Assembly (NCBI GenBank): GCA_026415035.1
Contig: JAOAHX010000009.1
Coordinates: 1-64,000 of the forward strand
Source of the DNA: Thermodesulfobacteriota bacterium
GTDB taxonomy: Bacteria; Desulfobacterota; BSN033; UBA1163
Reading direction: 5' to 3'
Length of the DNA: 64,000 bases
In this document: positions 19,108 to 54,875 of the stretch, in pieces
Layout: each line of letters starts with the position of its first letter
Numbering within the stretch: the stretch's first letter is position 1
Program-made: the position numbers and the translations under genes
The notes under the pieces: model-generated
What the model was told of the DNA's origin: nothing
The model's database searches: none
What the model saw: the letters and a program-made list of their open reading frames with translations, nothing else

Positions 19108-19257
19108 TCTCGTTTGGGATGGGGTAAGGAGACCGAGCCCAACCCCCGGCAAAAATGGGTCTTTCGGGCCTCGGGAAAACTATATTGTAGCTATTTCTTA
19201 ACTTCTTTAACCCTCCGTTCTTCCAAGAGATTTCCTCCCTCCAAGAGAACCTTTTCA

Positions 19258-19274
19258 CATTTAACGTAAACTGG
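19258..19274 (-). promoter_or_regulatory. Operator-like site, third copy of the TTTACGTAAA-type motif
   Basis: Read on the minus strand it is CCAGTTTACGTTAAATG, similar to CAGTTTACGTAAAGTGG at 28183 and 51196 but with mismatches in the right half. It sits 10 bp upstream of the -35 hexamer of the second transporter operon. Confidence 0.4.
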
Positions 19275-19284
19275 AATTTTTTTC

Positions 19285-19313
19285 TTGACAAAAAGATGGC
19301 GTTCTGATAATAG
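19285..19313 (+). promoter_or_regulatory. Sigma-70-like promoter of the second LIV transporter operon
   Basis: TTGACA (19285-19290), 17-bp spacer, TAATAG (19308-19313). The -35 is perfect consensus. Start of transcription would be near 19320. Confidence 0.6.
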
Positions 19314-19549
19314 AAGGGTCACGATTTTTCTGGGTGGGCTTTTCGATTCCTTTCCAGCCCTTCTGTCCGCATCGAACAGACAAATGGAGGGCGCCCGGTG
19401 CGCCCCGATGGAGAGGCTGAGCCAAATCCCGATGAAGGAAAAAACCTCGATTCCTTCCCTTTGGCAAAGCAAGCCCCCTCTACCCTCATCTCCCTGCCTT
19501 AGGCTATCCAGGCAAGTCAGCCGGAATCCCTATTCAAAAGGAGGGCTTC

Positions 19550-20359
19550 ATGGTCGTAACCAATGAGACCCAGCTCAAGGTGGAAAATATCCATATGGCC
19601 TTCGGAGGCGTCCAGGCCTTGCTCGGGGTCAGTTTCGAAGTGAAAAAGGGCGAGATCTTCTCCATCATCGGCCCCAATGGCGCCGGGAAAACGGTCCTTC
19701 TCAACTGTATCAACGGGCTCTACAAACCGCAGAAAGGGAAGATCTTCTTCGAGGGAAAGGACATCAGCACCTTAAAACCCTACCAGAGGGCGGAACTGGG
19801 GATTTCGAGGACCTTCCAGAAACTGGAGCTATTCAGGGGGGCCACGGTCCTCGATAACATCCGCCTCGGGCGCCATATCCATCTGAAATCGGGTCTTCTC
19901 AGCAGCGCCCTCTACATAGGGAAGACCGCGAGAGAAGAGATCGAACATCGGGATTTCATCGAAAGGGAGATCATCGACCTGCTCGAGATCGAACACATCC
20001 GACACAAGATCGTCGGGATGCTCCCCTACGGGCTTCAAAAGAGGGTGGAGTTGGCAAGGGCCTTGGCCCTCAATCCAAAGATGATCCTCCTCGATGAGCC
20101 CCTTGCCGGCCTCAACCTGGAGGAGGTCGAGGATATGGCCCGGTTCATCCTCGACATCAATGAAGAAGAGCGATGGCAGACGACCTGTGTGCTGGTCGAA
20201 CACGACATGGGGGTCGTCATGGACATCTCCCACCGGGTCATGGCCCTCAACTTTGGAGAGAAGATCGCAGAGGGTCCCCCCCCCGAGGTCCAGAAGAACC
20301 CCAGCGTCATCAAAGCCTATTTAGGAGAGGCGGAGGATCTCTATGTCACAAGACGTTAA
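19550..20359 (+). CDS. livG: ABC transporter ATP-binding protein, LivG (second transporter)
   Basis: 269 residues preceded by AAAAGGAGGG. Walker A 'GPNGAGKTV', signature-like 'LPYGLQKRVELARALAL', Walker B 'MILLDEPLAGLNLEE', and 'VLVEHDMGVVMDISHRVMALNFGEKIAEG'. It opens the second operon, livG-ligase-livH-livM-livK-livF-lipoprotein. Its last 17 bp overlap the ligase gene. Confidence 0.92.
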   Translation: MVVTNETQLKVENIHMAFGGVQALLGVSFEVKKGEIFSIIGPNGAGKTVLLNCINGLYKPQKGKIFFEGKDISTLKPYQRAELGISRTFQKLELFRGATVLDNIRLGRHIHLKSGLLSSALYIGKTAREEIEHRDFIEREIIDLLEIEHIRHKIVGMLPYGLQKRVELARALALNPKMILLDEPLAGLNLEEVEDMARFILDINEEERWQTTCVLVEHDMGVVMDISHRVMALNFGEKIAEGPPPEVQKNPSVIKAYLGEAEDLYVTRR

Positions 20360-22277
20360 ACACAGAGAGGTGCCCATCACCAAAGATTTGACCATTCCCA
20401 AGCTCTGGCTGGCTGCGGCGAAGAAGTACTGGGACAAGAAGGTCGCGATGCGCGAGAAGGAGTTCGGCATCTGGGTCCCCATCACCTGGAAGCAGTACTA
20501 TGAGAACGTCAAGAGGATCGCCCTCGGGATGGTCTCCCTGGGGCTCGAGCGAAACGACAAGGTGGCCATGATCGGAGACAACCGACCCGAGGCCCTCTGG
20601 GCCGAGATGGCGGCCATGTGCGTGGGAGGCGTCGGCGTCTGGCTCTTTCAAGATTCGCTCATAGATGAGGTCCAGTATATCATCGACCACTCCGATGCCA
20701 AACTGATGGTGGGCGAAGGACAGGAGGAGGTCGACAAATATCTCATGATCAAGGAGAAGTGCCCCAAGCTGAAGAAGATGATCTGGGACGATCCCAAAGG
20801 CATGAGAGGATACGACGAGCCCACCTTGATGAGCCTCAAGGAGTTGATGAAAATCGGCGAGGACCTGGATAAAAAAGAGCCCGGCCTCTTCGAGGATTTG
20901 ATCTCGAAGGGGAAGGGAGACGATATCTGCCTCCTCTTCTATACCTCCGGAACGACGGCCCTGCCCAAGGGGGCTCTCCTCACCCATTACAACATGCTCA
21001 CCATGGGCCGAAACCTCATGCGGGTCGATCCCTACTTCGAGACCGATGACTTCGTCTCCTATCTTCCCTTCGCTTGGATCGGCGAGCAGATGATGTCGAT
21101 CTCTTGCGGGATCCAGGCCGGGTTCACGCTCAACTTCCCGGAGGAACCGGAGACGGCCCAAGAAAATATCCGCGAGATCGGCCCCCAGGTGATGTTCGCG
21201 CCCCCCCGGATCTATGAGCAGATGGTCCGAAATGTTCAGGTGAAATATCTTGACTCCACCTGGGCCAAGCGGAAGGCCTATGAGCTGGCGATGAAGATCG
21301 GATACCACGTGGCGGAGCTGAAGTTTTCCAAAAAACCGGTCCCCTTCCAGTGGAAGGCCCTCAACTACCTGGCCTATCTCGGGGTTCATAAAAAATTGAA
21401 GGATCACCTCGGCCTCTCGAGGATCAGGTATACCTACACCGGTGGGGCCGCCATGGGTCCCGACCATTTCAGGTTCTTCCACGCCCTCGGAGTCAACCTG
21501 AAGCAGATCTATGGACAGACCGAAATTGCCGGCATCTCCGTTCTTCATCGAGACGGCGATATCAAATTCGATACGGTGGGCAAACCCATCCCCGAAACCG
21601 AGGTGAAGATCACGCCCGATGGGGAGATCATCTCCAAGAGCCCCTCCGTCTTCCAGGGATACTATAAGATGCCCGAGGAGACCGCCAAGGCCTTGAGGGA
21701 GGGATGGCTCCACTCGGGCGATACCGGCTTTATCGATTCCGATGGCCACCTGGTCGTCTTCGATCGGACCAAGGACGTGATGGTGTTGAGCGACGGGACG
21801 AAGTTTGCGCCCCAGTACCTGGAGACCCGGTTGAAATTCAGCCCCTATATCAAGGATGTCTGGGCGATCGGGGATAAGAAGCCCTACGTCACGGCCGTCA
21901 TCTGCATCGATTATAACGTGGTGGGCAAATGGGCGGAGGATCGAAACATCGCCTACACCAGCTACCCGGAACTCTCTCAGATCCAGGAGGTCTATGAACT
22001 GATCAAAAAAGAGATCGTCAAGATGAACCGAGACCTCCCCCCAGTCGCCCGGGTGAAGAAGTTCGTCAACCTTTTTAAGGAATTCGATGCGGACGATGAC
22101 GAATTGACCCGAACCCGAAAATTGAGGAGGGCCTTTGTGGAAGAGCGTTATCGGGACATCGTCAACGGTCTCTACTCGGACGTGAAAAGCGTCCACATGG
22201 ACACCAACATCACCTATGAGGACGGAAGGGTGGTCCATATCAAGGCCGACATGAAAGTCATGGAGGTCCCTCAATGA
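20343..22277 (+). CDS. Long-chain-type acyl-CoA synthetase embedded in the second LIV operon
   Basis: 644-residue adenylate-forming ligase: P-loop 'LFYTSGTTALPKGALLTH', 'LKQIYGQTEIAGISVLHRDG', 'LHSGDTGFIDSDGHLVVFDRTKDVMVLSDGTKFAPQ'. The C-terminus reads 'DADDDELTRTRKLRRAFVEERY' without the usual K-x-x-G-K-x-x-R tail, as in the bubblegum/ACSBG-type long-chain synthetases. Such a ligase within a LIV cassette suggests that an imported acid is charged with CoA on entry. The start overlaps livG by 17 bp. Substrate range is inference. Confidence 0.88.
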   Translation: MSQDVKHREVPITKDLTIPKLWLAAAKKYWDKKVAMREKEFGIWVPITWKQYYENVKRIALGMVSLGLERNDKVAMIGDNRPEALWAEMAAMCVGGVGVWLFQDSLIDEVQYIIDHSDAKLMVGEGQEEVDKYLMIKEKCPKLKKMIWDDPKGMRGYDEPTLMSLKELMKIGEDLDKKEPGLFEDLISKGKGDDICLLFYTSGTTALPKGALLTHYNMLTMGRNLMRVDPYFETDDFVSYLPFAWIGEQMMSISCGIQAGFTLNFPEEPETAQENIREIGPQVMFAPPRIYEQMVRNVQVKYLDSTWAKRKAYELAMKIGYHVAELKFSKKPVPFQWKALNYLAYLGVHKKLKDHLGLSRIRYTYTGGAAMGPDHFRFFHALGVNLKQIYGQTEIAGISVLHRDGDIKFDTVGKPIPETEVKITPDGEIISKSPSVFQGYYKMPEETAKALREGWLHSGDTGFIDSDGHLVVFDRTKDVMVLSDGTKFAPQYLETRLKFSPYIKDVWAIGDKKPYVTAVICIDYNVVGKWAEDRNIAYTSYPELSQIQEVYELIKKEIVKMNRDLPPVARVKKFVNLFKEFDADDDELTRTRKLRRAFVEERYRDIVNGLYSDVKSVHMDTNITYEDGRVVHIKADMKVMEVPQ

Positions 22278-22295
22278 TCTGATCGAGGAGGTCCT

Positions 22296-23180
22296 ATGGA
22301 GATCTTTTTACAGCTATTAATCACGGGGATCTTGGTCGGAAGCATCTACGCTTTGGTGGCCCTCGGCTGGACGCTCATCTATAAATGCTCAGGCGTCCTC
22401 AACCTGGCCATGGGAGAGCTCACCCTCATCGGCGCCTATGTCTGCCTCACCTTATATCACTTGGGCATTCCCTTCATCCTCGCCCTGTTGATCACCTTAG
22501 CCATCGGCTTCATCCTCGGCATCCTGACCGAGGTCTTATTCCTCAGGCCCATGGTGGGAGAGCCTGTGCTCGCGGTCATCATGGTGACGGTCGGGCTGGC
22601 CTTCTTCTTCAGAGGCCTGGTCATGCTCATCTGGGGGACCGACACCGTGGTTTTCTCCCCCCCCGTCTTTCCGATGGAGCCCCTCAAAATCGGGAGGATC
22701 GTCATCGGCCAGGTCTTCCTTTGGGCCTTCATCGCCTCCGTCATCCTCATGATCGCCTTCGTCTCCTTCTTTAAATTCACGAAGTGGGGCCTCTCCATGC
22801 AGGCCACGGCAGACGACGAAATGGCCGCCCTCTCTCTGGGGGTAAACGCAAAGGTGGTCTATGCCCTGGCCTGGGCTATCGCCTTCATGGCGGCTGGCGT
22901 GGGAGGCACCCTGCTGGGAAATATCAATGGTCTCAATATCTCGGTTGGGTACCTCGGCTTGCTGGTCTTGCCGGCCGTCGTTCTGGGAGGATTGAACTCG
23001 GTCCCGGGCGCGATCGTGGGCGGCCTCATCATCGGGGTCCTCCAGAACCTGGCCGATGGCTACCTGAGCCGTTACACCCCGGGCGGGGTCAAAGATGTCT
23101 TCCCTTTTGCGGTCATGGTGATCATCCTCCTCTTCAAGCCTTACGGCCTGTGGGGATGGGTGAGGATCGAACGAGTCTAA
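22296..23180 (+). CDS. livH: Branched-chain amino acid type ABC permease, LivH (second transporter)
   Basis: 294-residue hydrophobic permease with 'LITGILVGSIYALVALGWTLIYKCSGVLNLAMGELTLIGAYVCL' and the coupling-loop pattern 'KFTKWGLSMQATADDEMAALSLGVNAK'. Follows the ligase gene by 18 bp with a GAGGAGG ribosome site. Partner of LivM at 23250. Confidence 0.92.
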   Translation: MEIFLQLLITGILVGSIYALVALGWTLIYKCSGVLNLAMGELTLIGAYVCLTLYHLGIPFILALLITLAIGFILGILTEVLFLRPMVGEPVLAVIMVTVGLAFFFRGLVMLIWGTDTVVFSPPVFPMEPLKIGRIVIGQVFLWAFIASVILMIAFVSFFKFTKWGLSMQATADDEMAALSLGVNAKVVYALAWAIAFMAAGVGGTLLGNINGLNISVGYLGLLVLPAVVLGGLNSVPGAIVGGLIIGVLQNLADGYLSRYTPGGVKDVFPFAVMVIILLFKPYGLWGWVRIERV

Positions 23181-23197
23181 AACATCACACCCCCTCC

Positions 23198-23230
23198 CCT
23201 TCCCTCCCCTCTCCCGGGGAAAAGGAAGGG
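23198..23230. repeat. Palindromic GC-rich intergenic hairpin
   Basis: CCCTTCC and GGAAGGG arms flank an inner CTCCCGGGG segment in the short gap between livH and livM. Member of the hairpin family listed at 7596. It has no T-tract and lies inside an operon, so it probably acts on mRNA stability rather than termination. Confidence 0.45.
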
Positions 23231-23249
23231 TGGGCGGAGGAGGTTCCTT

Positions 23250-24344
23250 ATGAATTATCGTCCCTGCGGTGTCTACCATCAACATTATCGTCAGGACCAT
23301 GCCTGGTGGCAGACCAAATTCGTCTGGGGGAAGATGATCCTGCTCTTTGTCAGCATCTTCTTCCTTTTCCCCCAATTCGCCAGTATGTACCTCATCTCCA
23401 TCGCAAATGTCGTGGGCTATACCATCCTCTCGGCTATGGGGGTCCAACTCCTCATCGGGTATTGCGGACAGGTCACCCTCGGCCATGCGGCCTTCCTTGC
23501 GACCGGCGCCTATACCTGCACCCTCCTGATGCTTCAGCTCAACGTCCCTTACCCCATTGCCATGGTGATCGGCGGCCTCGTTGGAGGTCTGTGGTGTGTC
23601 CTCTTTGGGCTTCCCTCCGCCAGGGTCAAGGGATTTTATTTGATCATGACCACCATGGCCGCCCAGTTCCTCACGGTCGAATTCTTCATCACCCAGTACA
23701 TCAGCCAGATCGGAGGAAGGGGCGTGGCCTTTTCGATCCCGCCCGGTACGGTGAAGATCGGGCCATGGGTGATCAAAGATGATAAAGATGTTTACTACCT
23801 GATGGCCATCCTGGTTGTCCTGCTCACCCTCGTCATGGCCAACCTGGTGCGGTCGAAAATCGGAAGGGCCTGGATCGCCATCCGCGACAACGATATTGCT
23901 GCGGAGACGATGGGCGTCAACATTGTCTACTATAAACTGTTGGCCTTCTTCGTGGCCGGGTTCTTCGGCGGAATAGCCGGCGCCTTCTGGGTCACCTCCC
24001 TGGCAGCCGTCAGCCCGGAGCACTTCCACTTCGGGTGGTCCCTCTGGCTGGTGGGGGTCATCCTCATCGGAGGCGTGGGAAGCATCCACGGGACAATCTT
24101 CGGCTCCCTGTTCATGACCCTCATCCCAGAAGCCCTCAAATTTTTCATCTTCATCCTGACGGAAAGCCCCTTTTTGGTGGGCCTGATGCCCTTCTTGCCT
24201 CACCTCCTTGAGAAATTTCTCTACGTGAAGGAGGCGGCCTTTGGCCTCGCCATCGCCCTCTTCCTCATCTATGAACCCAACGGTCTGGCATACCGATGGT
24301 GGCAGATCAAGAATTACTTTAATCTCTGGCCCTTCTCTTATTAA
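23250..24344 (+). CDS. livM: Branched-chain amino acid type ABC permease, LivM (second transporter)
   Basis: 364-residue permease. After a polar N-terminus of ~30 residues (unusual 'YRPCGVYHQHYRQDHAWW') come the membrane spans with 'AMGVQLLIGYCGQVTLGHAAFLATGAYTC', 'SARVKGFYLIMTTMAAQFL', the coupling loop 'SKIGRAWIAIRDNDIAAETMGVNIVYYK' and 'EPNGLAYRWWQIK' at the end. The permease partner of LivH. Confidence 0.92.
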   Translation: MNYRPCGVYHQHYRQDHAWWQTKFVWGKMILLFVSIFFLFPQFASMYLISIANVVGYTILSAMGVQLLIGYCGQVTLGHAAFLATGAYTCTLLMLQLNVPYPIAMVIGGLVGGLWCVLFGLPSARVKGFYLIMTTMAAQFLTVEFFITQYISQIGGRGVAFSIPPGTVKIGPWVIKDDKDVYYLMAILVVLLTLVMANLVRSKIGRAWIAIRDNDIAAETMGVNIVYYKLLAFFVAGFFGGIAGAFWVTSLAAVSPEHFHFGWSLWLVGVILIGGVGSIHGTIFGSLFMTLIPEALKFFIFILTESPFLVGLMPFLPHLLEKFLYVKEAAFGLAIALFLIYEPNGLAYRWWQIKNYFNLWPFSY

Positions 24345-24454
24345 CCAAAAGGGAGGTCCCTGAGGAGGCGAATCGCCCCAAAACATGTGGATCGGATCGA
24401 TCACGAATTCCCCATCGCCCATCACGAATTAAAAAAGGAGGTGGTGCCCGTCAA

Positions 24455-24488
24455 TGGATGGTGGGAGGTTCAAGTGGATGGTGGGAGG
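24455..24488 (+). repeat. 14-bp tandem direct repeat in the livM-livK gap
   Basis: TGGATGGTGGGAGG occurs at 24455-24468 and 24475-24488, a 20-bp period. CACGAATT also occurs twice upstream (24401-24408 and 24423-24430). The 204-bp gap holds no convincing gene or promoter. The significance is unclear. Confidence 0.45.
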
Positions 24489-24548
24489 GATTTAATCGGA
24501 CGTCATCTTTTTTTCGTACTTTTTCAAAGTCCTCATAGGAGGTGAAAG

Positions 24549-25793
24549 ATGAAAAGGAAGATCGTGATAGGGTTGATTCTATTGCTGTGCCTCTTCGCCT
24601 CATGGGCCATCGCCCAGGAGGTGAGGTTGGGGGCCCTCCAGGATACCACCGGTGCGACTTCGGATGTGGGAAAGGACGAGGCCTTGGGAGTCCGCGAGGC
24701 GGTCCAATATTACAATGATAAAGGGGGGATCAACGGGAAGAAGATCCGTTTGTTTCAATACGACTACGGTTACCGAATCCCTGAGGCCATCACCACCTAC
24801 AAGCGATTCAGGGACTACGACAAGGTGGTGATGGTGCTCGGGTGGGGCACCGGCGATACGGAGGCCCTTTCGCCGACTATCAATGCCGACAAGATGCCCT
24901 ATCTCTCCAGTTCTTTCTCCGCCCATCTCTGCGACCCCAAAAAGACCCCTTATAACTTCGTCTACGGAACCGACTATTCGACCAATGCCCGGGGCGCCCT
25001 CCAGTACTGGTTCGACGAAGTCTGGAAAAAGGACCCCAAATGGAAGGAACTGAGAGAGAAAGGGGCGAAACCGAAGTTCGTCTGCTTTATCGATACCGCC
25101 TCTCCCTATGCCACCGCACCCATCAAGGCAATCAAAGATCAAGCCACTATATTGGGAATGGAAATCGGACCGGATCAGCACGTCGCCCTGACAGCCCTCG
25201 ACACGAAGAGCCAGGTCATTGCGGCCAAGGGCTTCGGCGCCAACATCGTGTGGCATGGGAATACGACCATGTCTGTCTCGGCGGCCCTGAAGGATGCGAT
25301 GGCCCTCGGTCTCGGAGCCGATCACATTATCAATAACTGGGGATTCGACGAAAACCTCCCCAAATTAGCGGGGCCTGCGGCCGAAGGGGCGATCGGGTTG
25401 GCCGCATGTTCCTTCTTCATCGAAGAATTTCCTGCGAAGAAGACCGTGGTCGAATATGCCAAGAAGCTCAACCCAGGCATCCCCCTCGAAAACCGTCTCA
25501 TCCGGACGGTCCAGGGATGGCTGAAGGTGACCCTGGCTGTGGAAGCGATGACGAGGGCCGACAAGGCGGGAAAGTTGAACGGCCCGGGGATCAAAGAGGC
25601 CTTCGAAACCTTGAGGGATTGGCCGGGGTTGAAGCCCTTCGGCGGGCAACTCGTCACCCTCACCCCGGAAGATCACCGCTACAGTTCCATCGTGACGATC
25701 GGCCGGATTATCAAAGGAAAACCTCAGACGGTGGGGACCATCGACATGCGTGCCAAATATCCTGACCGATGGGCCGCCTGGTTGGGGTGGTAA
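24549..25793 (+). CDS. ABC transporter substrate-binding protein (LivK-like, second transporter)
   Basis: 414 residues with signal peptide (KRK, long hydrophobic run, 'SWAIAQ' cleavage-like site) and a mature start 'EVRLGALQDTTGATSDVGKDEALGVREAVQYYNDKGGINGKK' typical of the LivK fold. It is encoded inside the second transporter operon after livM, preceded by AGGAGG. The ligand is unknown; the ligase in the same operon suggests a carboxylic acid rather than an amino acid. Confidence 0.9.
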   Translation: MKRKIVIGLILLLCLFASWAIAQEVRLGALQDTTGATSDVGKDEALGVREAVQYYNDKGGINGKKIRLFQYDYGYRIPEAITTYKRFRDYDKVVMVLGWGTGDTEALSPTINADKMPYLSSSFSAHLCDPKKTPYNFVYGTDYSTNARGALQYWFDEVWKKDPKWKELREKGAKPKFVCFIDTASPYATAPIKAIKDQATILGMEIGPDQHVALTALDTKSQVIAAKGFGANIVWHGNTTMSVSAALKDAMALGLGADHIINNWGFDENLPKLAGPAAEGAIGLAACSFFIEEFPAKKTVVEYAKKLNPGIPLENRLIRTVQGWLKVTLAVEAMTRADKAGKLNGPGIKEAFETLRDWPGLKPFGGQLVTLTPEDHRYSSIVTIGRIIKGKPQTVGTIDMRAKYPDRWAAWLGW

Positions 25794-25823
25794 TCGGACC
25801 CGTTTCGCGGAGGAGGAGACGAC

Positions 25824-26642
25824 TTGGAACAAAAATCGAACGACATCATCTTAAAGTTGAACAATATCGAAGTGATGTACCACGAGGTCATCCTGGTCTT
25901 GAAGGGGGTCTCGATCGAAGTGCCCCATGGAGGGATTGTCGCCCTCCTCGGGGCCAATGGAGCTGGAAAATCGACCACCCTCAAATCGATCTCGGGCCTT
26001 TTGAAGCATGAGGACGGGGAGGTCACCGACGGCTCCATCGAATTCATGGGAGAGAAGATCCACCATCTCTCCGCGGAGGAGATCTCCAAGCGGGGGATCT
26101 TCCAGATCATCGAAGGTCGAAGGGTCTTCGGTCACCTCACGGTGGAGGAGAACCTCCGCGTAGGGGCCCACCTTCGGGCCGGGGGGAGCGCCATGAGGGA
26201 GAGGCTCGAGATGGTCTATCACTATTTTCCAAGGCTGGTGGAGCGCCGAAATGTAATGGCGGGGTTCATCAGCGGAGGGGAGCAGCAGATGACCGTGATC
26301 GGGAGGGCCCTGATGGCCCAACCGAGGCTGATGCTTCTGGACGAACCCTCGATGGGGCTGGCTCCTCTCTTGATTAAAGAGATCTTTGAGATCATCTCGA
26401 AATTGAATAAAGACGAGAAGATCCCCCTCCTCCTGGTCGAGCAGAACGTGAAGCTGGCCCTCACCGTCGCTCCCTATGCCTACGTCCTCGAGAACGGAAG
26501 GCTGGTGATGCACGATACGTCAGAGAAGTTAAAGGAGAACCCGGATATTCGGGACTTTTACCTCGGCCTCTCAGACCTCGGCGAACGAAAGAGCTTCAGG
26601 CAGGTGAAACATTACAAGAGGAGAAAGAGATGGCTCACCTAA
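25824..26642 (+). CDS. livF: ABC transporter ATP-binding protein, LivF (second transporter)
   Basis: 272 residues. The start is TTG 25824, chosen because GGAGGAGGA sits 6 bp upstream and the protein then begins 'MEQKSNDIILKLNNIEVMYHEV'. Walker A 'GANGAGKST', signature 'ISGGEQQMTVIGRALM', Walker B 'LMLLDEPSMGLAP'. The C-terminus extends with a basic 'KHYKRRKRWLT' tail. Completes the second LivHMGF set. Confidence 0.9.
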   Translation: MEQKSNDIILKLNNIEVMYHEVILVLKGVSIEVPHGGIVALLGANGAGKSTTLKSISGLLKHEDGEVTDGSIEFMGEKIHHLSAEEISKRGIFQIIEGRRVFGHLTVEENLRVGAHLRAGGSAMRERLEMVYHYFPRLVERRNVMAGFISGGEQQMTVIGRALMAQPRLMLLDEPSMGLAPLLIKEIFEIISKLNKDEKIPLLLVEQNVKLALTVAPYAYVLENGRLVMHDTSEKLKENPDIRDFYLGLSDLGERKSFRQVKHYKRRKRWLT

Positions 26643-28143: not shown

Positions 28144-28167
28144 TTGGGGGAAGTCCCCCGTTTTTTT
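28144..28167 (+). terminator. Rho-independent terminator after the CBS-ACT gene
   Basis: GGGGG, loop AAGT, CCCCC, then G and TTTTTTT. It separates the CBS-ACT transcript from merR. Confidence 0.7.
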
Positions 28168-28182
28168 CTTTGTCGAACTTTT

Positions 28183-28199
28183 CAGTTTACGTAAAGTGG
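28183..28199 (+). promoter_or_regulatory. Operator-like site before merR (TTTACGTAAA core)
   Basis: CAGTTTACGTAAAGTGG with the perfect 10-bp palindrome TTTACGTAAA at 28186-28195, 15 bp before the merR ATG. The same 17 bases occur at 51196-51212. The most likely ligand is the MerR protein encoded immediately downstream, acting on its own gene. A clear -10 hexamer is not visible here. Confidence 0.55.
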
Positions 28200-28210
28200 T
28201 TTAAATCATT

Positions 28211-28660
28211 ATGGAAATTGATGGCCTCAAATACTATCCCATCGGTGAGCTTGCCAAGCTGGTCAATCTAAGCCCGCGGACGATCCGGTACTACGAGGAG
28301 ATCGGGCTTCTCAATTCCGTCAAGCGGATCGAGGGAGGAAAGAGAGTCTATACGGATAAGGATGTCCAGCGCCTCAAGTTCATCCAGAGGCTCAAACACC
28401 TCGGCCTCTCCCTGGCGGAGATGCATGAATTAGAGGCCATCTACCAGATCCATCGCACCAACCGCAAGGTATTGCCTCGCCTGCTCGAACTCCTCGACAA
28501 TCACGTCAACCATATCGATGAGCGGATCAAAATCCTCCTACGGTTGAAGGCGGAGATCTTGAGCTATCAGGAAAAAATCCGGGAGAAGCTCAATGCCGAA
28601 CCGGATGCACCCAAAGGAGGAGACCTTGAAAAGAGAGGTTCTGATCACCAGCGCCGTTAG
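28211..28660 (+). CDS. MerR-family transcriptional regulator
   Basis: 149 residues. The N-terminal winged helix-turn-helix is clear: 'YPIGELAKLVNLSPRTIRYYEEIGLL' then 'RVYTDKDVQRLKFIQRLKHLGLSLAEM'. The rest is a dimerisation helix with no obvious effector domain or metal-binding cysteines, so it may act mainly as a repressor. It overlaps the thiolase gene and heads a beta-oxidation operon, which suggests fatty or branched acyl-CoA control like LiuR-type MerR proteins of proteobacteria. The effector is unknown. Confidence 0.88.
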   Translation: MEIDGLKYYPIGELAKLVNLSPRTIRYYEEIGLLNSVKRIEGGKRVYTDKDVQRLKFIQRLKHLGLSLAEMHELEAIYQIHRTNRKVLPRLLELLDNHVNHIDERIKILLRLKAEILSYQEKIREKLNAEPDAPKGGDLEKRGSDHQRR

Positions 28661-29810
28661 GACACCCATAGGAAATTTCCTGGGGGCCCTCAGCGCCTTC
28701 ACCGCCACGGAACTTGGAGGAAAAGTGATCGAGGAGGCGGTGAAACGCTCCAAAATCCAGAAGGAGGAGGTCGACGAGGTGATCATGGGAAACGTCCTCC
28801 CCTTCGGCCTCGGACAGAATCCCGCCCGCCAGGCCATGATCAAGGCCGGCCTACCCATGGCCGGCGGAGCCCTGACGATCAACAAGGTCTGCGGATCGGG
28901 CCTCAAGGCGGTCATGCTGGCCGCCCAGGTCATCCAGGCAGGGGACGCAGAGGTGATCGTGGCAGGCGGCATGGAATCCATGAGCCGGGTTCCCTACTAC
29001 CTCGAACAGGCCCGCACCGGTTATCGCCTATGGGACGGGAAACTCATCGACGGGATGGTCCACGACGGCCTCTGGGATGTGGTGAACGACTACCACATGG
29101 GGTTCACGGCGGAGATCCAGTCGGTCAAATTCAAGATCTCCCGGGAGGCGCAGGACCGGTTTGCCTTCGAGTCGAATCAAAAGGCGATGCGCGCCATCCG
29201 AGAGGGAAAGTTCAAGGCCGAGATCCTCCCCATCGAGGTTCCTTCCAAAAAAGGGGAACCGACGCTCTTCGACACCGACGAAGGCCCAAGGGAGACCGAC
29301 CTTCAGGCCCTTTCGAGATTGAAACCGGCCTTCAAGGAGGGAGGGGTCGTCACCGCCGGCAACTCCTCGAAGATCAGCGATGGCGCAAGCGCCCTCGTCC
29401 TCATGTCTTCGGAGAAGGCCGAGGCCTTGGGGGTGAAACCCCTGGCAAGGGTGGGGGCTCAGGCGGCAGCCGGCGTCGAACTGGAAGACGTCCTGGTCGC
29501 TCCCATCCAATCGATCCCAAAAGTCCTGAGGAAGGCTGGGCTCTCTCTCAAGGAGATCGATCTTTTCGAGATCAACGAGGCCTTTGCAGCCACCACCCTG
29601 GCCATCATCAAAACCTTGGGGATCGAAGAGGATCGGGTCAATATCCGAGGCGGTGCGGTCGCCCTTGGCCATCCGATCGGGGCCAGTGGCGCCCGAATCC
29701 TGACCACCCTTATCTATGCCATGAAGGATACCGGCGCCCACCGGGGCCTGGCCTCCCTCTGCCTCGGAGGGGGTGAGGCGGTCAGCCTGATCATAGAAAA
29801 CATCGATTAG
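28626..29810 (+). CDS. Acetyl-CoA acetyltransferase (thiolase)
   Basis: 394 residues from TTG 28626, chosen because AAAGGAGGAG ends 3 bp upstream and the protein then starts '[16 protein letters not shown]' like its family. The gene thus overlaps merR by 35 bp. Catalytic residues are intact: nucleophile C89 in 'NKVCGSG', H349 in '[10 protein letters not shown]' and C379 in 'SLCLGGGEA', numbering identical to classical thiolases. It cleaves 3-ketoacyl-CoA with CoA, or makes acetoacetyl-CoA in reverse, and fits with the dehydrogenases that follow. Confidence 0.95.
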
Positions 29811-29849
29811 TCCCGATTTTGGACATTTTCGCCGAAGAAGGGGAGGCAG

Positions 29850-30704
29850 ATGCAGATCCAAACGATCGGGGTCGTGGGAGCAGGGCAGATGGGAAGCGGG
29901 ATCGCCCAAGTGGCGGCCCAATCCGGATTTCGAGTCGTGATGAGCGACATCGCAGAACCCTTCCTCCAGAAGGGGATCCTCGCCATCACGAAGAATTTGA
30001 ATCGATTGGTCGAGAAGAAAACGCTCTCCGCCGAGCAGCGGGACGACCTCCTTCAGAGGATCAAGGGGACCCTTGCCTTGGAGGAGATGGCGGAGGCCGA
30101 TTTTGTGATCGAGGCCGCCACGGAAAACGAGGCCCTTAAGTTGAAGCTCTTCAAAGAACTCGACCAGATCTGCCGCCAGGAGGTCATCCTTTCGAGCAAC
30201 ACCTCCTCCATCTCCATCACGAAGATCGCCTCTGCCACCGGGAGGCCCTCCCAGGTGATCGGGATGCACTTTATGAATCCCGTCCCCGTGATGCAACTGG
30301 TGGAGATCATCCGAGGCCATCAAACCTCCCAGGAGACCTTCGAGGTGGTTCGCTCCCTCTCGCAACGGATGGGAAAAACCCCGGTGGAGGCGAACGACTT
30401 CCCGGGGTTCATCTCCAACCGGATCCTGATGCCCATGATCAACGAGGCCATCTTCGCCCTCTACGAAGGCGTGGGCACGGCCGAGGCCATCGATACGGTC
30501 ATGAAGTTGGGCATGAACCATCCCATGGGCCCCTTGGCCCTGGCCGATCTCATCGGCCTGGACACCTGTTTGGCCATCATGGAGGTCCTCCACAAGGGCT
30601 TTGGGGATCCGAAATACCGACCCTGCCCCCTTCTGAAGAAGTATGTGGATGCGGGCTATCTGGGACGGAAGGCGGGAAGAGGTTTCTACCAATATTCGAC
30701 CTGA
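29850..30704 (+). CDS. hbd: 3-hydroxybutyryl/3-hydroxyacyl-CoA dehydrogenase
   Basis: 284 residues of the single-domain type. The NAD-binding glycine motif is '[21 protein letters not shown]', the catalytic His region '[21 protein letters not shown]', and the C-terminal '[19 protein letters not shown]' is typical. It interconverts 3-hydroxyacyl-CoA and 3-ketoacyl-CoA with NAD(P). It lies 39 bp after the thiolase gene in the merR operon. Confidence 0.94.
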
Positions 30705-30839
30705 CTTGGAAGAAAAGCAAAGGAAGACCAAAAATCTTCAAAAGGTCAACATTCTGATCTAAAACATGGCCCATTAAAATCCTCGTCTCCGGATTCTTTC
30801 GGTTTTTCGGTTTTCGGATTTCCGACCTTAGGGGCTCCG

Positions 30840-31985
30840 ATGGATTTTAAGCTCACCTCCGAACAGGAGATGATCCGGGACATGGTGAGGGACTTCACGG
30901 AGAAGAGCATCAAACCCGTGGCCGCTCACCACGACAGGGAAAAACGATTCCCTTACGAGAATATCAAAAAGATGGCCGAGCTCGGTTTGATGGGGATGAA
31001 CATCCCTGTCGAATACGGAGGCTCAGAGGTGGGGGTGATCGCTTACAGCCTGGCCATCACCGAGATCGCCAAGGGCTGCGCCTCCCATGCGGTCACCACC
31101 TCTGTCACCAATATGGTCGCCGAGGTGATCTACGAATTCGGCCAGGAGGAGATCAAACGGAAGCACCTGCCCAAGCTTTGCAGCGGCGAATACCCCGCGG
31201 GCTCCTTCGCCCTGACCGAGCCCCACGCGGGGTCCGATGCGGCCAACATCCGGACCCTGGCGGAGCGACGAAATCAGGCCTACGTCCTCAACGGGACCAA
31301 GGCGTTCATCACCAGCGGAGAGGTCTCGGGCGTCACCGTGGTCTGGGCGGTGACGGATCGCACTGCGAGAAAGGGGCGCGGGATATCGGCCTTCCTCGTC
31401 GAGAAGGGAACGCCTGGCTTTCGGGTGGGGAAGGCCGAAGAGAAGTTGGGCCATTGCGCCTCGGTGCTGAACGAACTGATCTTCGAAGACTGCGTCGTCC
31501 CAGCCAGCCATCTCCTCGGCAGGGAGGGCGAAGGTTTCAAAATCGCCATGATGGAACTCGATGGAGGCCGAATCGGGATCGGATCCCTTTCGGTGGGAGT
31601 GGGCTTTGCTGCCATCGACTTTGCCACCCAGTATGTGAAGGAGCGGGAGGCCTTCGGAAAGCCCCTCACCAGTTTCGAGGCCATCCAGTGGATGATCGCC
31701 GACTCCTACACCAGCCTCGAGGCCGCCCAGCTGCTCGTCCTGCGGGCGGCCTATCTCAAAGAGAACAAACTCCCCTTTACCAAAGAGGCCTCCATGGCCA
31801 AACTCTTTGCGACGGAGACCGCCAAAGAGGTGGCCCTTCGAGCGGTTCAGATGTTAGGAGGATACGGATATACGAAAGAATATCCCGTCGAACGATACCT
31901 GCGGGATATCATAGGGACGACCCTCTATGAAGGGACTTCGGAGGTCCAACGGATTGTCATTTCAAGAGAGATTTTACAAAGATAA
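30840..31985 (+). CDS. Acyl-CoA dehydrogenase
   Basis: 381 residues of the short/medium/branched-chain acyl-CoA dehydrogenase family: 'FALTEPHAGSDAANIRTLAERR', 'VLNGTKAFITSGE', 'REAFGKPLTSFEAIQWMIADS' and catalytic glutamate in 'LYEGTSEVQR'. It forms 2-enoyl-CoA and passes electrons to ETF. The 135-bp gap before it contains the degenerate TTCGG-rich filler (30788-30830), so it may be on its own transcript or at the end of the merR operon. Confidence 0.93.
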   Translation: MDFKLTSEQEMIRDMVRDFTEKSIKPVAAHHDREKRFPYENIKKMAELGLMGMNIPVEYGGSEVGVIAYSLAITEIAKGCASHAVTTSVTNMVAEVIYEFGQEEIKRKHLPKLCSGEYPAGSFALTEPHAGSDAANIRTLAERRNQAYVLNGTKAFITSGEVSGVTVVWAVTDRTARKGRGISAFLVEKGTPGFRVGKAEEKLGHCASVLNELIFEDCVVPASHLLGREGEGFKIAMMELDGGRIGIGSLSVGVGFAAIDFATQYVKEREAFGKPLTSFEAIQWMIADSYTSLEAAQLLVLRAAYLKENKLPFTKEASMAKLFATETAKEVALRAVQMLGGYGYTKEYPVERYLRDIIGTTLYEGTSEVQRIVISREILQR

Positions 31986-48429: not shown

Positions 48430-48954
48430 ATGGAGAAGGGTCTCGTTCAGGTTTACACAGGCAATGGGAAGGGGAAGACGACGGCGGCCCTCGGGTTGGC
48501 CCTCCGGGCAGCCGGCCATGGATTTAAAACGCTCGTCATCCAGTTCATGAAGGGGAACATCCAATACGGAGAACTGGAATCGGCCAAGAGGCTATCCCCC
48601 TATCTCACCATCCGCCAGATGGGGAGGGAGACCTTTGTCTCGAAGACGAACCCCGACCCCGTGGACATCGAATGGGCTCGTAAAGGGTTCGCCCTGGCCC
48701 GGGAGGCCGTGGCCAGCGGAGCCTACGATATCATCATCCTGGACGAAATCAACGTGGCCGTCGATTTTGGCTTGATCCCTTTGCCGGAGCTCCTTCGGCT
48801 TCTCGATTCAAAACCGGATTCGGTCGAGCTGGTCCTCACCGGAAGAAATGCGGCCGAGGAGGTCATCGATCGGGCCGATCTGGTCACGGAGATGGTCGAA
48901 AAGAAACATTACTTTCAAAAGGGGGTTACATCACGAATCGGAATTGAGATATAG
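48430..48954 (+). CDS. cobO: Cob(I)yrinic acid a,c-diamide / cobalamin adenosyltransferase (CobO/BtuR type)
   Basis: 174 residues: P-loop 'TGNGKGKTTAALGLALRAAGHG', 'VIQFMKGNIQYGE', 'YDIIILDEINVAVDFGL' and 'ELVLTGRNAAEEVIDRADLVTEM'. It transfers the adenosyl group of ATP to cob(I)alamin to give adenosylcobalamin, the cofactor of the two mutases encoded downstream. It lies after the HdrA genes and about 117 bp before the first mutase, linking redox and B12 modules. Confidence 0.93.
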   Translation: MEKGLVQVYTGNGKGKTTAALGLALRAAGHGFKTLVIQFMKGNIQYGELESAKRLSPYLTIRQMGRETFVSKTNPDPVDIEWARKGFALAREAVASGAYDIIILDEINVAVDFGLIPLPELLRLLDSKPDSVELVLTGRNAAEEVIDRADLVTEMVEKKHYFQKGVTSRIGIEI

Positions 48955-49071
48955 GGATCGATAGGATCGTTGTCCTGTTGGGGTTTCTCGAGACGACCGT
49001 AGGAAAGCCCGCCTGGGGCTACCGATCCATCTTCTCCATGAACGGATTCTCTTCAAGAGGGGGTGGGGTCC

Positions 49072-50745
49072 ATGTTCAAAGAAGACCAACTCAATAAGGT
49101 GGGAGAAGAGAAGAAGAGATGGGTCAACGATCTCTCCAAACTGCTTTCTGAAACGCCCGAACGCCTGCCTCGTTTCACCACCATCTCTGACCTCGAGATC
49201 AAAGGGCTTTACACACCCGAGGACATCAAAGACCTCGACTACACAAAAGACATCGGTTTCCCCGGCCTCTATCCTTTCACGCGAGGCGTCCAACCCTCTA
49301 TGTACCGTGGCCGCCTCTGGACCATGCGGATGTTCTCCGGCCTCGGGGGTCCGGAGGAGACCAACCAGCGTTTCCATTATCTGCTCGATCACGGGGAGAC
49401 CGGACTCTCCATCGCCTTCCACTACCCGACCCTGATGGGTTACGACAGCGATTCGCCGATGGCCCGGGGCGAAATCGGAAAGTGCGGGGTGGCCGTCGAT
49501 ACCCTCAAGGACATGGAGATCCTCTTCGAGGGGATCCCCCTCGACAAGGTGACCACCTCCATGACGATCAATCCACCGGCGGCCATTCTGCTGGCGATGT
49601 ACATCGTGGTGGCGGAGAAACAGGGGGTGAGCAAGCGAGAGATCGGGGGCACGATCCAGAACGACATGTTGAAGGAGTTCATCGCCCAGAAGACCTTCAT
49701 GCTGCCTCCGAAACCCTCCATGCGGATCATCGTGGACACGATCGAGTACTGCACCAAGGAGGTCCCCCGCTGGAACACGATCAGCATCAGTGGCTACCAT
49801 ATCCGTGAGGCTGGGTCGACGGCCGTCCAGGAGCTGGCCTTCACCCTCGCCGACGGAATCGCCTATGTGGAGGCCGCCCTCGAGAGAGGCCTCGATGTGG
49901 ATGACTTTGCGCCGAGGCTCTCCTTCTTCTTCGACGCCCATATCGACTTCTTCGAAGAGATCGCCAAATTCAGGGCGGCCCGGAGGATGTGGGCCAAGAT
50001 CATGCGGGAGCGGTTCATGGCCAAAAAACCTCGATCCTGGATGCTCCGCTTTCACACCCAGACCGCCGGGTGTTCGTTGACGGCCCAGCAACCTTTCAAC
50101 AACATCGTCCGAACCGCCTACGAGGCCTTGGCGGCGGTGCTGGGCGGGACCCAATCGCTCCACACCAACTCCCTCGACGAGACCTATGCCATCCCGACCG
50201 AGGAAGCGGTCACCATCGCCCTCCGAACCCAGCAGATCCTGGCCGAGGAGACTGGGGTGGCCAACACCATCGATCCCCTGGCGGGATCCTATTTTGTGGA
50301 GGCCCTCACCAATCAGATGGAAGAGCAGGCCTGGGACTATATCCGCAAGATCGATGAGATGGGGGGGATGCTGAACGCCATCGAGAGGGGGTATCCCCAG
50401 ATGGAGATCGCAGAGGCCGCCTATCGCTACCAACGGCAGATCGATTCGGGGGAGAAGGTGATCGTCGGCGTCAATAAATATGTGACCGACCACCCCCCCA
50501 TCACGATCTGGAGGATGAGACCGGAGATCGAGGAGCGCCAGCTTCGACGACTGCAGGAGGTCAAACGGACCCGCAACAACGCAAGGGTGAAGGCCTGTCT
50601 CGAAGAGATCCGGAAGGCCTCCCTCAACGGCGAAAATCTCATGCCTCCGATCATTGAAGCCGTCCGGGAGTATGCCACCATCCAGGAGATCTGCGATGTG
50701 TGGCGGGAGGTCTTCGGACGATACACGGATCCAGGATACTTTTAA
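49072..50745 (+). CDS. B12-dependent acyl-CoA mutase large subunit, isobutyryl-CoA-mutase-like
   Basis: 557 residues from ATG 49072 (AGAGGGGG upstream; in-frame GTG 49063 possible). TIM-barrel substrate subunit of the methylmalonyl-CoA mutase family: '[22 protein letters not shown]', '[25 protein letters not shown]', '[18 protein letters not shown]', '[14 protein letters not shown]'. The residues equivalent to Tyr89 and Arg207 of P. shermanii mutase are F88 and Q206; the spacing of 118 is identical and the radical-site His is H243. Phe/Gln at these positions marks isobutyryl-CoA mutases, whose substrate lacks a carboxylate. It lacks its own B12 domain, which is encoded by the next gene. 'AFHYPT' replaces the usual AFDLPT. 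Confidence 0.88.
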
Positions 50746-50759
50746 AGGCGGAGGGGGAC

Positions 50760-51161
50760 ATGGAACGGAAGGTCCGAATCCTGATTGCCAAACCCGGCCT
50801 GGATGGACATGACCGGGGAGCGAAGGTGATCGCAAGGGGGTTTCGCGATGCGGGGTTCGAGGTGATCTATACCGGGCTTCACCAGACCCCGGAGCAGATC
50901 GTGGCCACGGCCATCCAAGAGGATGTGGACGGCATTGGGCTTTCGATCCTCTCCGGAGCGCACGACTACATCTTCCCCCAGGTCATCCAGCTCCTCAAAG
51001 AAAAGGGGGCGGGCGACATCGTGGTCTTCGGAGGAGGTATCATCCCTGAGGAGGATATCCCCCCCTTGAAGGCCTGCGGGGTGAAGGCGATCTTCCTACC
51101 CGGAACGCCCATCGAAGAAGCGGTCAAATGGGTTCGGGAAAACATCAAGCCGAGATCGTAA
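50760..51161 (+). CDS. Mutase B12-binding (small) subunit for the isobutyryl-type mutase
   Basis: 133 residues from ATG 50760 after a GGAGGGGG ribosome site. The cobalamin motif DGHDRG (D15, H17, G20) is followed by '[11 protein letters not shown]' and '[13 protein letters not shown]', the Ser and Gly-rich loops of B12-binding Rossmann domains. Works with the large subunit 14 bp upstream. About as long as the paralogue at 60521. Confidence 0.93.
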
Positions 51162-51358
51162 AGGGGCGGCCGATTATTTTTTCGCCTAAACTTTACAGTT
51201 TACGTAAAGTGGATTTTATGGTATAGTGAGTCACCTTTGATAGCAGTGCACAGAAGCCTTCGCCAGTGAAGAAATCCATTCCCAAAAAGAAAGGAGGTGA
51301 AACCGATCCACCTTCGGGGAGACCCCCCTATTCTCGAAAGAAAGGAGGAAACCACCAG
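51162..51358 (+). promoter_or_regulatory. Promoter-operator region of the thiolase/DUF35 operon
   Basis: CAGTTTACGTAAAGTGG (51196-51212) with TTTACGTAAA at 51199-51208 is identical to the site before merR. The hexamers TTTACG (51199-51204) and TATAGT (51222-51227) are 17 bp apart, so the operator covers the -35. Outer arms ACTTTAC/GTAAAGT (51190-51210) extend the dyad. The leader has two Shine-Dalgarno sequences: AAAGGAGG before 'TGAAACCGATCC' (51288-51305) with no start codon, and AAAGGAGG serving the ATG at 51359. Confidence 0.6.
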
Positions 51359-52507
51359 ATGGCAAAACGAGTGGCAATTGTTGGCATAGGGACGACGGGA
51401 TTTCGGGCCACGACCCCTGACGTCTCCTACCGGGAGCTGACCTATGAAGCGGCGACCAAGGCGTATTTCGAGGCCGGCATCGAGCCGAAAGATGTGGACG
51501 CTTTTGTAGCGACCTCCGAGGATTTTCTGGAGGGCTACAGCATTGCAGACGAGTATTGTCCCGATCAATTGGGAGCGGTCTTGAGACCCATCTATACGGT
51601 CACGGGCGACGTCATCCACTCCCTCGCCTCCGCCTATATGATGATCCTTTCGGGGGTGGGCAGGATCATGGTCGTCCAGGGGATGTCCAAGGCCTCCAAC
51701 ATGCTGACCCTCTCGGACATGGTCACCTTCGCCATGGACCCGATCTACAACAGGCCCTTAAAGGAGAGCCCCTACGCCGTGGCGGGCATGGAGATGGCAA
51801 GATTTATGTATGAAACCGGCACGACGCGGGAGCAGATCGCCCGGGTTGTGGTCAAGAATAAAAGGAATGCCCTCACCAACGAGCTGGCGGCCCATGGGGT
51901 CCTGGTCGACTTGGACTACGTCCTCAATTCAGAGGTCGTCTCCTATCCCCTCACCCGGATGGACATCGCCCCTCATTCCGATGGCGCGGTGGTGATGGTC
52001 TTGGCCGATGAAGAGACCGCCAAATCCCTCTCCGATAAACCCATCTGGATCAGGGGGATCGGATGGTGTTCGGACACACCGGGGTTGGAGACCCGACCCT
52101 GGGGAGAGGCTATTTATGCGCAGCTCGCAGCGGAGATGGCCTACAAGATGGCCGGCATCCGTTATCCCCGGAAGGAGATCCACTTTGCGGAGATCAACGA
52201 TGAATTCTCCTACAAAGAGCTTCAACACCTCGAGGCCATGAGGATCTGTAAAAAGGGGGAGGCCGGCCCCCTGACGGAGATCGGAGGGACCGAGATCGGG
52301 GGAGAATTCCCGGTCAATCCTTCGGGAGGATGCTTAGGAGTGGGACACCTCTTCGAACTGAACGGTGGCCATGTGGTGCTGGAGGTGGTCCGCCAGTTAA
52401 GGGGAGAGGCCGGAAAGAATCAATTGAAAAATGTCACAACGGGCCTTGCCCAGAGCTGGCGGGGGATTCCGACGACCACTGGAACCGTGGCCATCCTGAG
52501 CAATTGA
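51359..52507 (+). CDS. Thiolase-fold protein 1 (SCP-x/lipid-transfer thiolase type), catalytic Cys absent
   Basis: 382 residues from ATG 51359. The thiolase fold is recognisable ('AKRVAIVGIGTTGF', 'HFAEINDEFSYKELQHLEAM', 'FPVNPSGGCLGVGHLFELNG'), but the position of the nucleophilic Cys reads 'YTVTGDVIHSLASAY', with no Cys. A histidine is kept in 'GVGHLFELNG'. Such proteins pair with DUF35 Zn-ribbon/OB-fold partners, as in Ltp2-ChsH2 or BbsAB, and act as retro-aldolases or unusual thiolases on branched acyl-CoAs. Two DUF35 genes follow. Probably under the MerR-type operator at 51196. Confidence 0.83.
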   Translation: MAKRVAIVGIGTTGFRATTPDVSYRELTYEAATKAYFEAGIEPKDVDAFVATSEDFLEGYSIADEYCPDQLGAVLRPIYTVTGDVIHSLASAYMMILSGVGRIMVVQGMSKASNMLTLSDMVTFAMDPIYNRPLKESPYAVAGMEMARFMYETGTTREQIARVVVKNKRNALTNELAAHGVLVDLDYVLNSEVVSYPLTRMDIAPHSDGAVVMVLADEETAKSLSDKPIWIRGIGWCSDTPGLETRPWGEAIYAQLAAEMAYKMAGIRYPRKEIHFAEINDEFSYKELQHLEAMRICKKGEAGPLTEIGGTEIGGEFPVNPSGGCLGVGHLFELNGGHVVLEVVRQLRGEAGKNQLKNVTTGLAQSWRGIPTTTGTVAILSN

Positions 52508-52523
52508 ACAAGGAGGTGACAGA

Positions 52524-53681
52524 ATGAGAAAGGTAGCCATTGTTGGAGCGGGAATTACCAAATTCTACCGGAACGCCCAGGAGACGCCGAAGGAGCTGGC
52601 CTACGAGGCCGCCAAGATGGCCCTCGACTCCTGCGGCTTAAAGCTCTCCGATATCGATTGTGTCGTGGTAGGGTCTGCTCCTGACGCCTTCGATGGAGTC
52701 CACATGAAGGGCGAATACCTCTCCGATGGGGCAGGCGCATTTCGAAAACCCTACATGAGACACTTCGTGGGCGGTGGAACGGGGGTGCTCTCGCCGGCCC
52801 ATGCGTGGTTTCATATCGCCTCAGGGATGTTCGACACCTGCCTGGTCGTGGCCGAGGAGAAGATGTCCTGTGCCTATCCCCATCCGGCAGGGGCTTTTCT
52901 GACAATCTTCGATCATACCACGGAACAGCCCCTCTACCCAACCCTGATCTACATCTTCGCCATCGAGATGAACCGATTCATGACGACCCACGGCTATAAG
53001 AAAGAAGAGATCGCCCTGGTGGCCGTGAAGAACAAGAAGAACGCCATGGATCATCCTTCGGCCCAACTGCCCGCGGAGATTACCGTTCAGGACGTGCTCA
53101 ACTCCGAGATCATGGCCTGGCCGGTCAACCGCCTCGATATCAGCCCGACGAGCGACGGGGCCTGCGCCTTAGTCCTGGCCGCAGAACATGTGGCCCGCAG
53201 GATCGACGAGAAACCCATCTGGATCGCCGGCGTGGGCTGGTGTCTCGATACCGCTTACTGGTGCACGCGCGACCTCTATTATCCCGACTATCTCGAGGTG
53301 GCCGCACGCCAGGCCTACCAGATGGCCGGCATCAGAGAACCGGCCAAAGAGATCCACGTGGCCGAACCCTACGACCCCTTCACCTACAAGGAACTCCATC
53401 ACATCGAGGGGTTGATGCTGGCCCCGAGGGGAAAATCGGTCGACCTGCTCGTCAAAGGCCACTTCAACCGGGACGGAAACCTTCCCTGCTCGCCCTCGGG
53501 CGGTCTTCTGGGCGTGGGAAATCCCATTTCCGCGGCCGGCCTGATGAAGATCATGGAGGTCTATCTCCAGCTCAAGGGAAGCGCTGGAAAACGGCAGGTC
53601 CCGGGCAATCCTACCTGCGGCGTGGCCAATGCCTGGGGCGATCTCATGCAGGTGGGGACCGTCGTCGTCTTGAGAAAATAA
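52524..53681 (+). CDS. Thiolase-fold protein 2 (SCP-x type), catalytic Cys and His absent
   Basis: 385 residues. 'MRKVAIVGAGITKFYRNAQETPKELAYEAAKMALDSCGL' is the SCP-x thiolase start. The nucleophile site reads 'VGGGTGVLSPAHAWFHIASG' (no Cys) and the catalytic His position is Asn in 'GVGNPISAAG'. It probably forms a heteromer with the preceding thiolase-like protein and the DUF35 proteins, or acts as a retro-aldolase. An AAGGAGG ribosome site precedes the ATG, 16 bp after the upstream stop. Confidence 0.83.
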   Translation: MRKVAIVGAGITKFYRNAQETPKELAYEAAKMALDSCGLKLSDIDCVVVGSAPDAFDGVHMKGEYLSDGAGAFRKPYMRHFVGGGTGVLSPAHAWFHIASGMFDTCLVVAEEKMSCAYPHPAGAFLTIFDHTTEQPLYPTLIYIFAIEMNRFMTTHGYKKEEIALVAVKNKKNAMDHPSAQLPAEITVQDVLNSEIMAWPVNRLDISPTSDGACALVLAAEHVARRIDEKPIWIAGVGWCLDTAYWCTRDLYYPDYLEVAARQAYQMAGIREPAKEIHVAEPYDPFTYKELHHIEGLMLAPRGKSVDLLVKGHFNRDGNLPCSPSGGLLGVGNPISAAGLMKIMEVYLQLKGSAGKRQVPGNPTCGVANAWGDLMQVGTVVVLRK

Positions 53682-53696
53682 GGAGGAGGTGAAACC

Positions 53697-54227
53697 ATGG
53701 AGATCACGGATAAAATGGTAGCTCACACGGCCACGAAATTGACCGCTGAGGAGATCCTTGGAGGAAAAGTCCTCTCGGTAAAATGGGAGCCCAAATTGAA
53801 ATATGCCTGGGACAACGGCCCGGCCATCGGCCGGTATCTCGCGGAGCTCAAAAACGGAAGGATCATCGCCAAGAAATGCGACAAATGCCACCGGATCATG
53901 CTCCCGCCGAGGATGTTCTGCGAACTCTGCTGGGTCCCGACCGGCGAATGGGTCTACGTCCAGGATACAGGGGTGGTCAATGCCTGGATCATCGGCTACG
54001 TCGACTGGAAGGCGGCCCGCCTCGACATCAAGGGAGGGGTCCGTCCCATCACCCAGAGCATCATCGAAATCGACGGGGCCTCCAAGGGGATGGGCATCCT
54101 CCATCTCTTAAACGAGGTCGATCCGTGGAAGATCTATCGGGGCATGAAGGTGAAAGCGGTCTGGAAACCGCCGGAGGAGCGGATCGGGGCCATCACCGAT
54201 ATCAAATATTTCAAACCCATCGAATAA
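53697..54227 (+). CDS. DUF35 Zn-ribbon/OB-fold protein 1
   Basis: 176 residues. The rubredoxin-like zinc ribbon is 'CDKCHRIMLPPRMFCELCW', followed by an OB-fold with 'GVVNAWIIGYVDW' and the C-terminal 'DPWKIYRGMKVKAVWKPPEERIGAITDIKYFKPI'. DUF35 proteins hold acyl-CoA and bridge thiolase subunits. It partners one or both thiolase-like proteins upstream. AGGAGGTGAAACC precedes the ATG. Confidence 0.88.
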   Translation: MEITDKMVAHTATKLTAEEILGGKVLSVKWEPKLKYAWDNGPAIGRYLAELKNGRIIAKKCDKCHRIMLPPRMFCELCWVPTGEWVYVQDTGVVNAWIIGYVDWKAARLDIKGGVRPITQSIIEIDGASKGMGILHLLNEVDPWKIYRGMKVKAVWKPPEERIGAITDIKYFKPIE

Positions 54228-54343
54228 AATCCGAATGGCCAATATGGAAGATTCATCCTTTTGAGAATCGGGGTTGAGAATTTCACGCCGGTTTCGGTTT
54301 TCGAGATTCGGATTTCCGATTTCCTAAATCAGGAGGTGAAACC

Positions 54344-54820: not shown

Positions 54821-54825
54821 TCTGC

Positions 54826-54860
54826 CCCCTCACCCCCCTCCCCGTGGGGGGGGTGAGGGG
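54826..54860. repeat. Perfect 13-bp GC-rich intercistronic hairpin
   Basis: CCCCTCACCCCCC (54826-54838) and GGGGGGTGAGGGG (54848-54860) with a 9-nt loop. It lies between the second DUF35 gene and the acyl-CoA dehydrogenase gene, without a T-tract. The strongest member of the hairpin family in this window; likely slows 3' decay or partly attenuates transcription. Confidence 0.7.
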
Positions 54861-54875
54861 ATTCGGGAGGCACCT

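Follow-up and report, generated by a model that had tools for sequence, protein, structure and literature searches.

The window, i.e., the whole 64,000-nucleotide stretch of DNA analysed here, harbors a gene cluster whose likely role, judging from its content, is to take up branched-chain amino acids or acids and oxidize them anaerobically. Three forward-strand operons form its core. The first (19550..26642), assigned by NCBIfam matches and synteny, encodes a branched-chain amino acid ABC transporter and an acyl-CoA ligase, in the order livG, acyl-CoA ligase, livH, livM, substrate-binding protein, and livF. The second opens with merR (28211..28660, forward strand), encoding a 149-residue regulator, and continues with genes for a thiolase, a 3-hydroxyacyl-CoA dehydrogenase (HCDH), and an acyl-CoA dehydrogenase (28593..31985). 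Here, the reading frame of the thiolase overlaps that of merR (28593-28660), and the probable start codon of the thiolase is TTG 28626, preceded by an AAGGAGG within the 3′ end of merR, which suggests translational coupling. The third (51266..56045) encodes two thiolase-like proteins, two DUF35/ChsH2-type OB proteins, and an acyl-CoA dehydrogenase, with meaB, a carboxyltransferase, and a second mutase downstream of this core; its first ORF opens with GTG at 51266, and its likely start is the ATG at 51359, where the alignment in relatives begins. The pathway context is completed by a cobalamin adenosyltransferase and a two-part acyl-CoA mutase (48430..51161, forward strand), as well as a 2-oxoacid:ferredoxin oxidoreductase, a second liv system, and ETF. 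A mutase, an adenosyltransferase, and MeaB are also combined in the isobutyryl-CoA mutase clusters of syntrophic branched-chain fatty acid degraders (PMC5017805), with which the window shares the two-part mutase, the cobalamin adenosyltransferase, and MeaB; the passages of that paper on these clusters describe no regulator or operator, whereas the window has merR and a palindrome.

This palindrome was recognized through a 17-mer, CAGTTTACGTAAAGTGG, which, as the earlier note had claimed, occurs in identical copies at 28183-28199 and 51196-51212 and in a weaker, inverted form, with three mismatches on either strand, at 19257/19258-19274. Allowing up to three mismatches, the 17-mer gave six strand-matches (three places) in the window, whereas 100 dinucleotide-preserving shuffles averaged 0.03. 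Its natural unit is an 18-bp palindrome centered on AC|GT, with the ideal form CCAGTTTACGTAAACTGG. Copy 1 (TCAGTTTACGTAAAGTGG, 28182..28199) lies in the merR promoter region 11 bp before the ATG, copy 2 (ACAGTTTACGTAAAGTGG, 51195..51212) covers a −35 hexamer, and copy 3 (ACATTTAACGTAAACTGG, 19257..19274) is centered at about −54 from the predicted start of the livG operon. We extended the pattern searches to the whole genome (3.06 Mb, 97% complete, 81 contigs), where the core TTTACGTAAA occurs only at the two exact sites (28183 and 51196), and both the 17-mer at up to three mismatches and the degenerate palindrome CANTTNACGTNAANTG at up to one mismatch returned the three window sites only. For CANTTNACGTNAANTG, about 0.09 sites were expected from base composition versus three observed, and its reversed control gave zero matches genome-wide. 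Random occurrence inside genes, which the earlier note had named as the outcome that would speak against an operator, was not what the search returned: all three sites are intergenic, promoter-proximal, and located within one cluster.

The motif CAGTTTACGTTAAGTGG, or a near form of it, was present in 18 of the 23 other genomes searched (relatives from the same genus, family, and class), at one to three copies per genome and nearly all at orthologous places. Counting this genome, a site precedes merR in 20 of 21 (19 of the 20 relatives holding merR) and livG in 13 of 17, reading ACATTTTACGTAAACTGG in most of the 12 further genomes with a livG site. In direct comparison, the thiolase/DUF35 operon carries a site in 6 of 14 genomes, to which come one site in G011, where the contig ends after it, and one in G019, before the adjacent mutase small subunit. 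Relatives in which copy 2 is conserved are G005, G010, G011, G013, G015, and G016. Since the relatives share ancestry, these counts are not independent, and the meaningful part is the contrast in column conservation between the operator (94–97%) and its flanks (53–70%). Individual sites are missing: directly before merR, G010 has none, although merR itself and the other two sites are present; G013, G014, and G015 keep merR but have lost the livG site; and the genus-mates G002 and G006-G009 are without the thiolase/DUF35 site. Both merR and motif were absent from G004 and G012, two incomplete genomes that were not counted as evidence. As a separate observation on the five genus-mates without a thiolase/DUF35 site (regions upstream of the thiolase ortholog: L165, L167, L170, L172, and L174), the intergenic space of some contains short repeats of ATTCC or TACGCTATGCGCT type, which gives the impression of an exchanged promoter region.

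The position of the palindrome relative to the promoter differs among the operons. A promoter scan found TTTACG-N17-TATAGT with an extended TG before the thiolase/DUF35 operon (51199..51227, forward strand), so that the −35 lies inside the operator, in agreement with the earlier note, and this promoter is kept in most site-bearing relatives. Upstream of merR, the preceding CBS-ACT gene ends in an intrinsic terminator (GGGGGAAGTCCCCC stem plus T tract, 28145..28168, forward strand), leaving 42 bp between the terminator end at 28168 and the ATG at 28211; any merR promoter in these 42 bp must thus overlap the operator, and a search of the same 42 bp for a consensus promoter found none. The predicted livG promoter (TTGACA, 17 bp, TAATAG; 19285..19313, forward strand) was read from the sequence and was not returned by the strict consensus scan; its TTGACA and a TGATAATAA-like −10 are conserved in relatives, and the operator ends 10–11 bp upstream of that TTGACA in nearly all of 13 genomes. 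In Smithellaceae, the operator directly follows TTGACA-N16-TATACT, at approximately +1. Three of these four arrangements (51199, merR, and Smithellaceae) favor repression as far as promoter layout can tell; at livG, the mode may be either.

We consider it likely, and hold this with good confidence, that the palindrome is the operator of the MerR protein encoded at 28211, which would co-control the three promoters as a repressor relieved by acyl-CoA. In the proposed mechanism, a MerR dimer would bind the 18-bp palindrome at the promoters of the livG/acyl-CoA ligase, merR-thiolase-HCDH-acyl-CoA dehydrogenase, and thiolase/DUF35 operons. At the last two, the first of which is its own operon, occupancy of −35/spacer DNA would cause repression. 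A rising level of branched- or short-chain acyl-CoA, or of another intermediate of the pathway, would make MerR release or distort the DNA, and the uptake, activation, and oxidation genes would then be expressed together. An acyl-CoA or related intermediate is the likely inducer, as judged solely from the targets. The palindrome is very probably the docking site through which the small MerR-type protein would switch the genes for branched-chain acid uptake and breakdown together in this uncultured anaerobic bacterium. A counter-point to repression is the livG operator, whose location upstream of the −35 is less usual for a repressor.

This location leads to an alternative that we regard as possible though unlikely, namely that MerR binds the palindrome but acts as a classical activator remodeling the spacer, or activates livG while repressing elsewhere. 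Such a role would suit the protein’s family: both MerR_1 (PF13411, 5e-21) and MerR-DNA-bind (PF09278, 5.8e-12) matched above cut-off, and fold and DNA-binding domain are those of CadR, ZntR, and CueR, the best solved-structure match being CadR (6jyw, E 6e-13). Among the matches listed in a plasmid search with the window MerR all were CadR-like, the best being a cadR at 40% identity, and against the NCBIfam models the protein fell far below the cut-offs (CadR, 82 vs 151 bits). Also in keeping with activation, the livG operator sits just upstream of a conserved TTGACA promoter, and the merR region of some relatives (G007) allows a reading with TTGACT-20 bp-TTAATC flanking the operator. An operator within a 19–20 bp spacer between −35 and −10, as in MerR proteins of the CadR/ZntR/CueR/SoxR type, is possible at merR, but is found neither at livG nor at 51199, where, in contrast to CadR, ZntR, and CueR, the −35 of an ordinary promoter with a 17-bp spacer lies under the operator; the Smithellaceae operator likewise departs from that pattern, being placed downstream of a near-consensus promoter. 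Moreover, the conserved metal- or cluster-binding cysteines of CadR, ZntR, CueR, and SoxR are missing, as the window MerR has no cysteine and nearly all orthologs have zero or one, which makes metal or redox sensing unlikely and argues against an activator of this kind. The direction of control at livG may nevertheless differ from that at the other two promoters.

Whether the palindrome belongs to this MerR or to another protein is addressed by its distribution across families. Within 230 bp before merR, the motif TTNACGTNAA was found for 18 of the 19 orthologs at ≥70% identity, and among more distant ones for 8 of 40 (50–70%), 9 of 25 (41–50%), and 7 of 19 (below that), where the chance expectation per merR upstream locus is 0.002–0.009 (0.009 each at ≥70% identity). 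Many orthologs of 50–70% identity are without the strict motif directly before merR, and operon-head or divergent arrangements account for these only partly. Several of them, from Smithellaceae and similar genomes, have the motif at the head of an acyl-CoA ligase (or related) operon that includes merR as a later gene, about 2–5.6 kb downstream, and in five genomes of other families the sole genome-wide match heads the merR-containing operon; the motif thus follows merR while the neighbors change. Several orthologs from Desulfobulbales/Desulfuromonadales (L073-L088) show paired sites ACGTAAAGGT about 125 bp apart, in the space that separates merR from a divergent hdrD/ETF/acyl-CoA dehydrogenase operon. 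The genome encodes two MerR proteins, the second beside pheT and an ihfA-like gene.

It seems improbable, then, that merR is merely a target and that the palindrome is bound by one of the further regulators, i.e., the HTH-cupin protein (6984), the sigma-54 regulator (10278), or the PocR-AraC protein (61379) of the window, or a TetR encoded elsewhere. Inverted repeats are the typical operators of many families, and these regulators are indeed at hand, but the site stays with merR across families whose neighboring genes differ, and homologs in a separate LiuR clade have related boxes before their own genes. That the repeat is an RNA element, part of a terminator, or a mobile repeat is hardly credible, because, although mobile or structural elements can take the form of short identical repeats, its position varies from upstream of the −35 (livG) to about +1 (Smithellaceae), so that it is not always transcribed, its copies, only two to three per genome, lie at orthologous promoters, and an Rfam search of the window, livG leader included, gave no match. 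Returning to MerR as the ligand, the three sites, their conservation at orthologous promoters, and the linkage to merR support the earlier note’s proposal that the protein at 28211 is the predicted regulator of the transport, β-oxidation, and branched-acyl operons.

The earlier note had further pointed to LiuR, the MerR-family repressor of branched-chain amino acid utilization in Proteobacteria (PMC3223726, PMC5343134, PMC7238569). Our LiuR reference loci were picked by gene neighborhood and not by name. LiuR is reportedly the subject of a comparative paper by Kazakov et al. from 2009. The Marinobacter locus lies beside genes for isovaleryl-CoA dehydrogenase and a carboxylase and has the box CTTTACGTTTACGTAAACT upstream, while LiuR-type boxes read CTTTACGTAAACGTC in Azospirillum and TTTACGTTAACGTAAA in Vibrio; in Martelella, inspection of the region directly before merR revealed no LiuR-type box. 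A search with a LiuR-like archaeal query found the LiuR loci. The window MerR resembles LiuR in its family, its scarcity of cysteines, a box containing TTTACGTAAA, and its predicted targets, with operators before three operons that include its own gene and acyl-CoA degradation genes. The gene order merR-thiolase-HCDH-acyl-CoA dehydrogenase is common to the window, Azospirillum, and Martelella. However, perfect LiuR-type boxes (Vibrio, Bacillaceae) consist of two ACGT units around TT|AA (TTKACGTT|WACGTMAA), whereas the window operator is centered on a single AC|GT with CAG..CTG ends. The wing of the window MerR is in addition one to two residues longer, and its targets include the liv transporter/acyl-CoA ligase and mutase-linked operons. 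In a maximum-likelihood tree, whose bootstrap is not fully settled and whose root is uncertain, the LiuR loci form one clade (99/99) and the window MerR falls in another (96/86), together with orthologs from Thermodesulfobacteriota, Myxococcota, Spirochaetota, and Methylomirabilota. The comparison thus holds as an analogy, while the separate clade and the differently centered operator indicate a LiuR-like variant and not LiuR itself; that the compact three-operon regulon and its operator represent such a variant is a well-supported prediction.

On a broader scale, we lean towards the view that this separate MerR clade, which had not been named before and has an operator of its own, CCAGTTTAC|GTAAACTGG, may constitute the dedicated acyl-CoA-sensing repressor through which anaerobic, partly syntrophic bacteria of these four phyla control the uptake and oxidation of branched- and short-chain acyl-CoA. 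Little has been described of how uncultured anaerobes and syntrophs control the oxidation of branched-chain acids: our literature search returned nothing on it, and neither searches for TTTACGTAAA with MerR nor searches for a MerR regulon in Geobacter or syntrophs brought up anything relevant. Since a genome-wide search for the operator yields hardly anything beyond the expected targets, membership of the regulon can be assigned directly from draft genomes, also for genes whose role is unknown, the thiolase/DUF35 pair among them. The putative sensor–operator pair is small, and knowing its ligand would show which acid is degraded by the cluster.

Two leaders in the window deserve mention in their own right. 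That of the thiolase/DUF35 operon (51212-51358) contains two Shine-Dalgarno-like AAGAAAGGAGG sequences, the first without an obvious start codon nearby. Before livG, a long untranslated leader of ~230 bp is predicted (19320-19549), and the distance from operator to livG start ranges from 195 to 480 bp in relatives.
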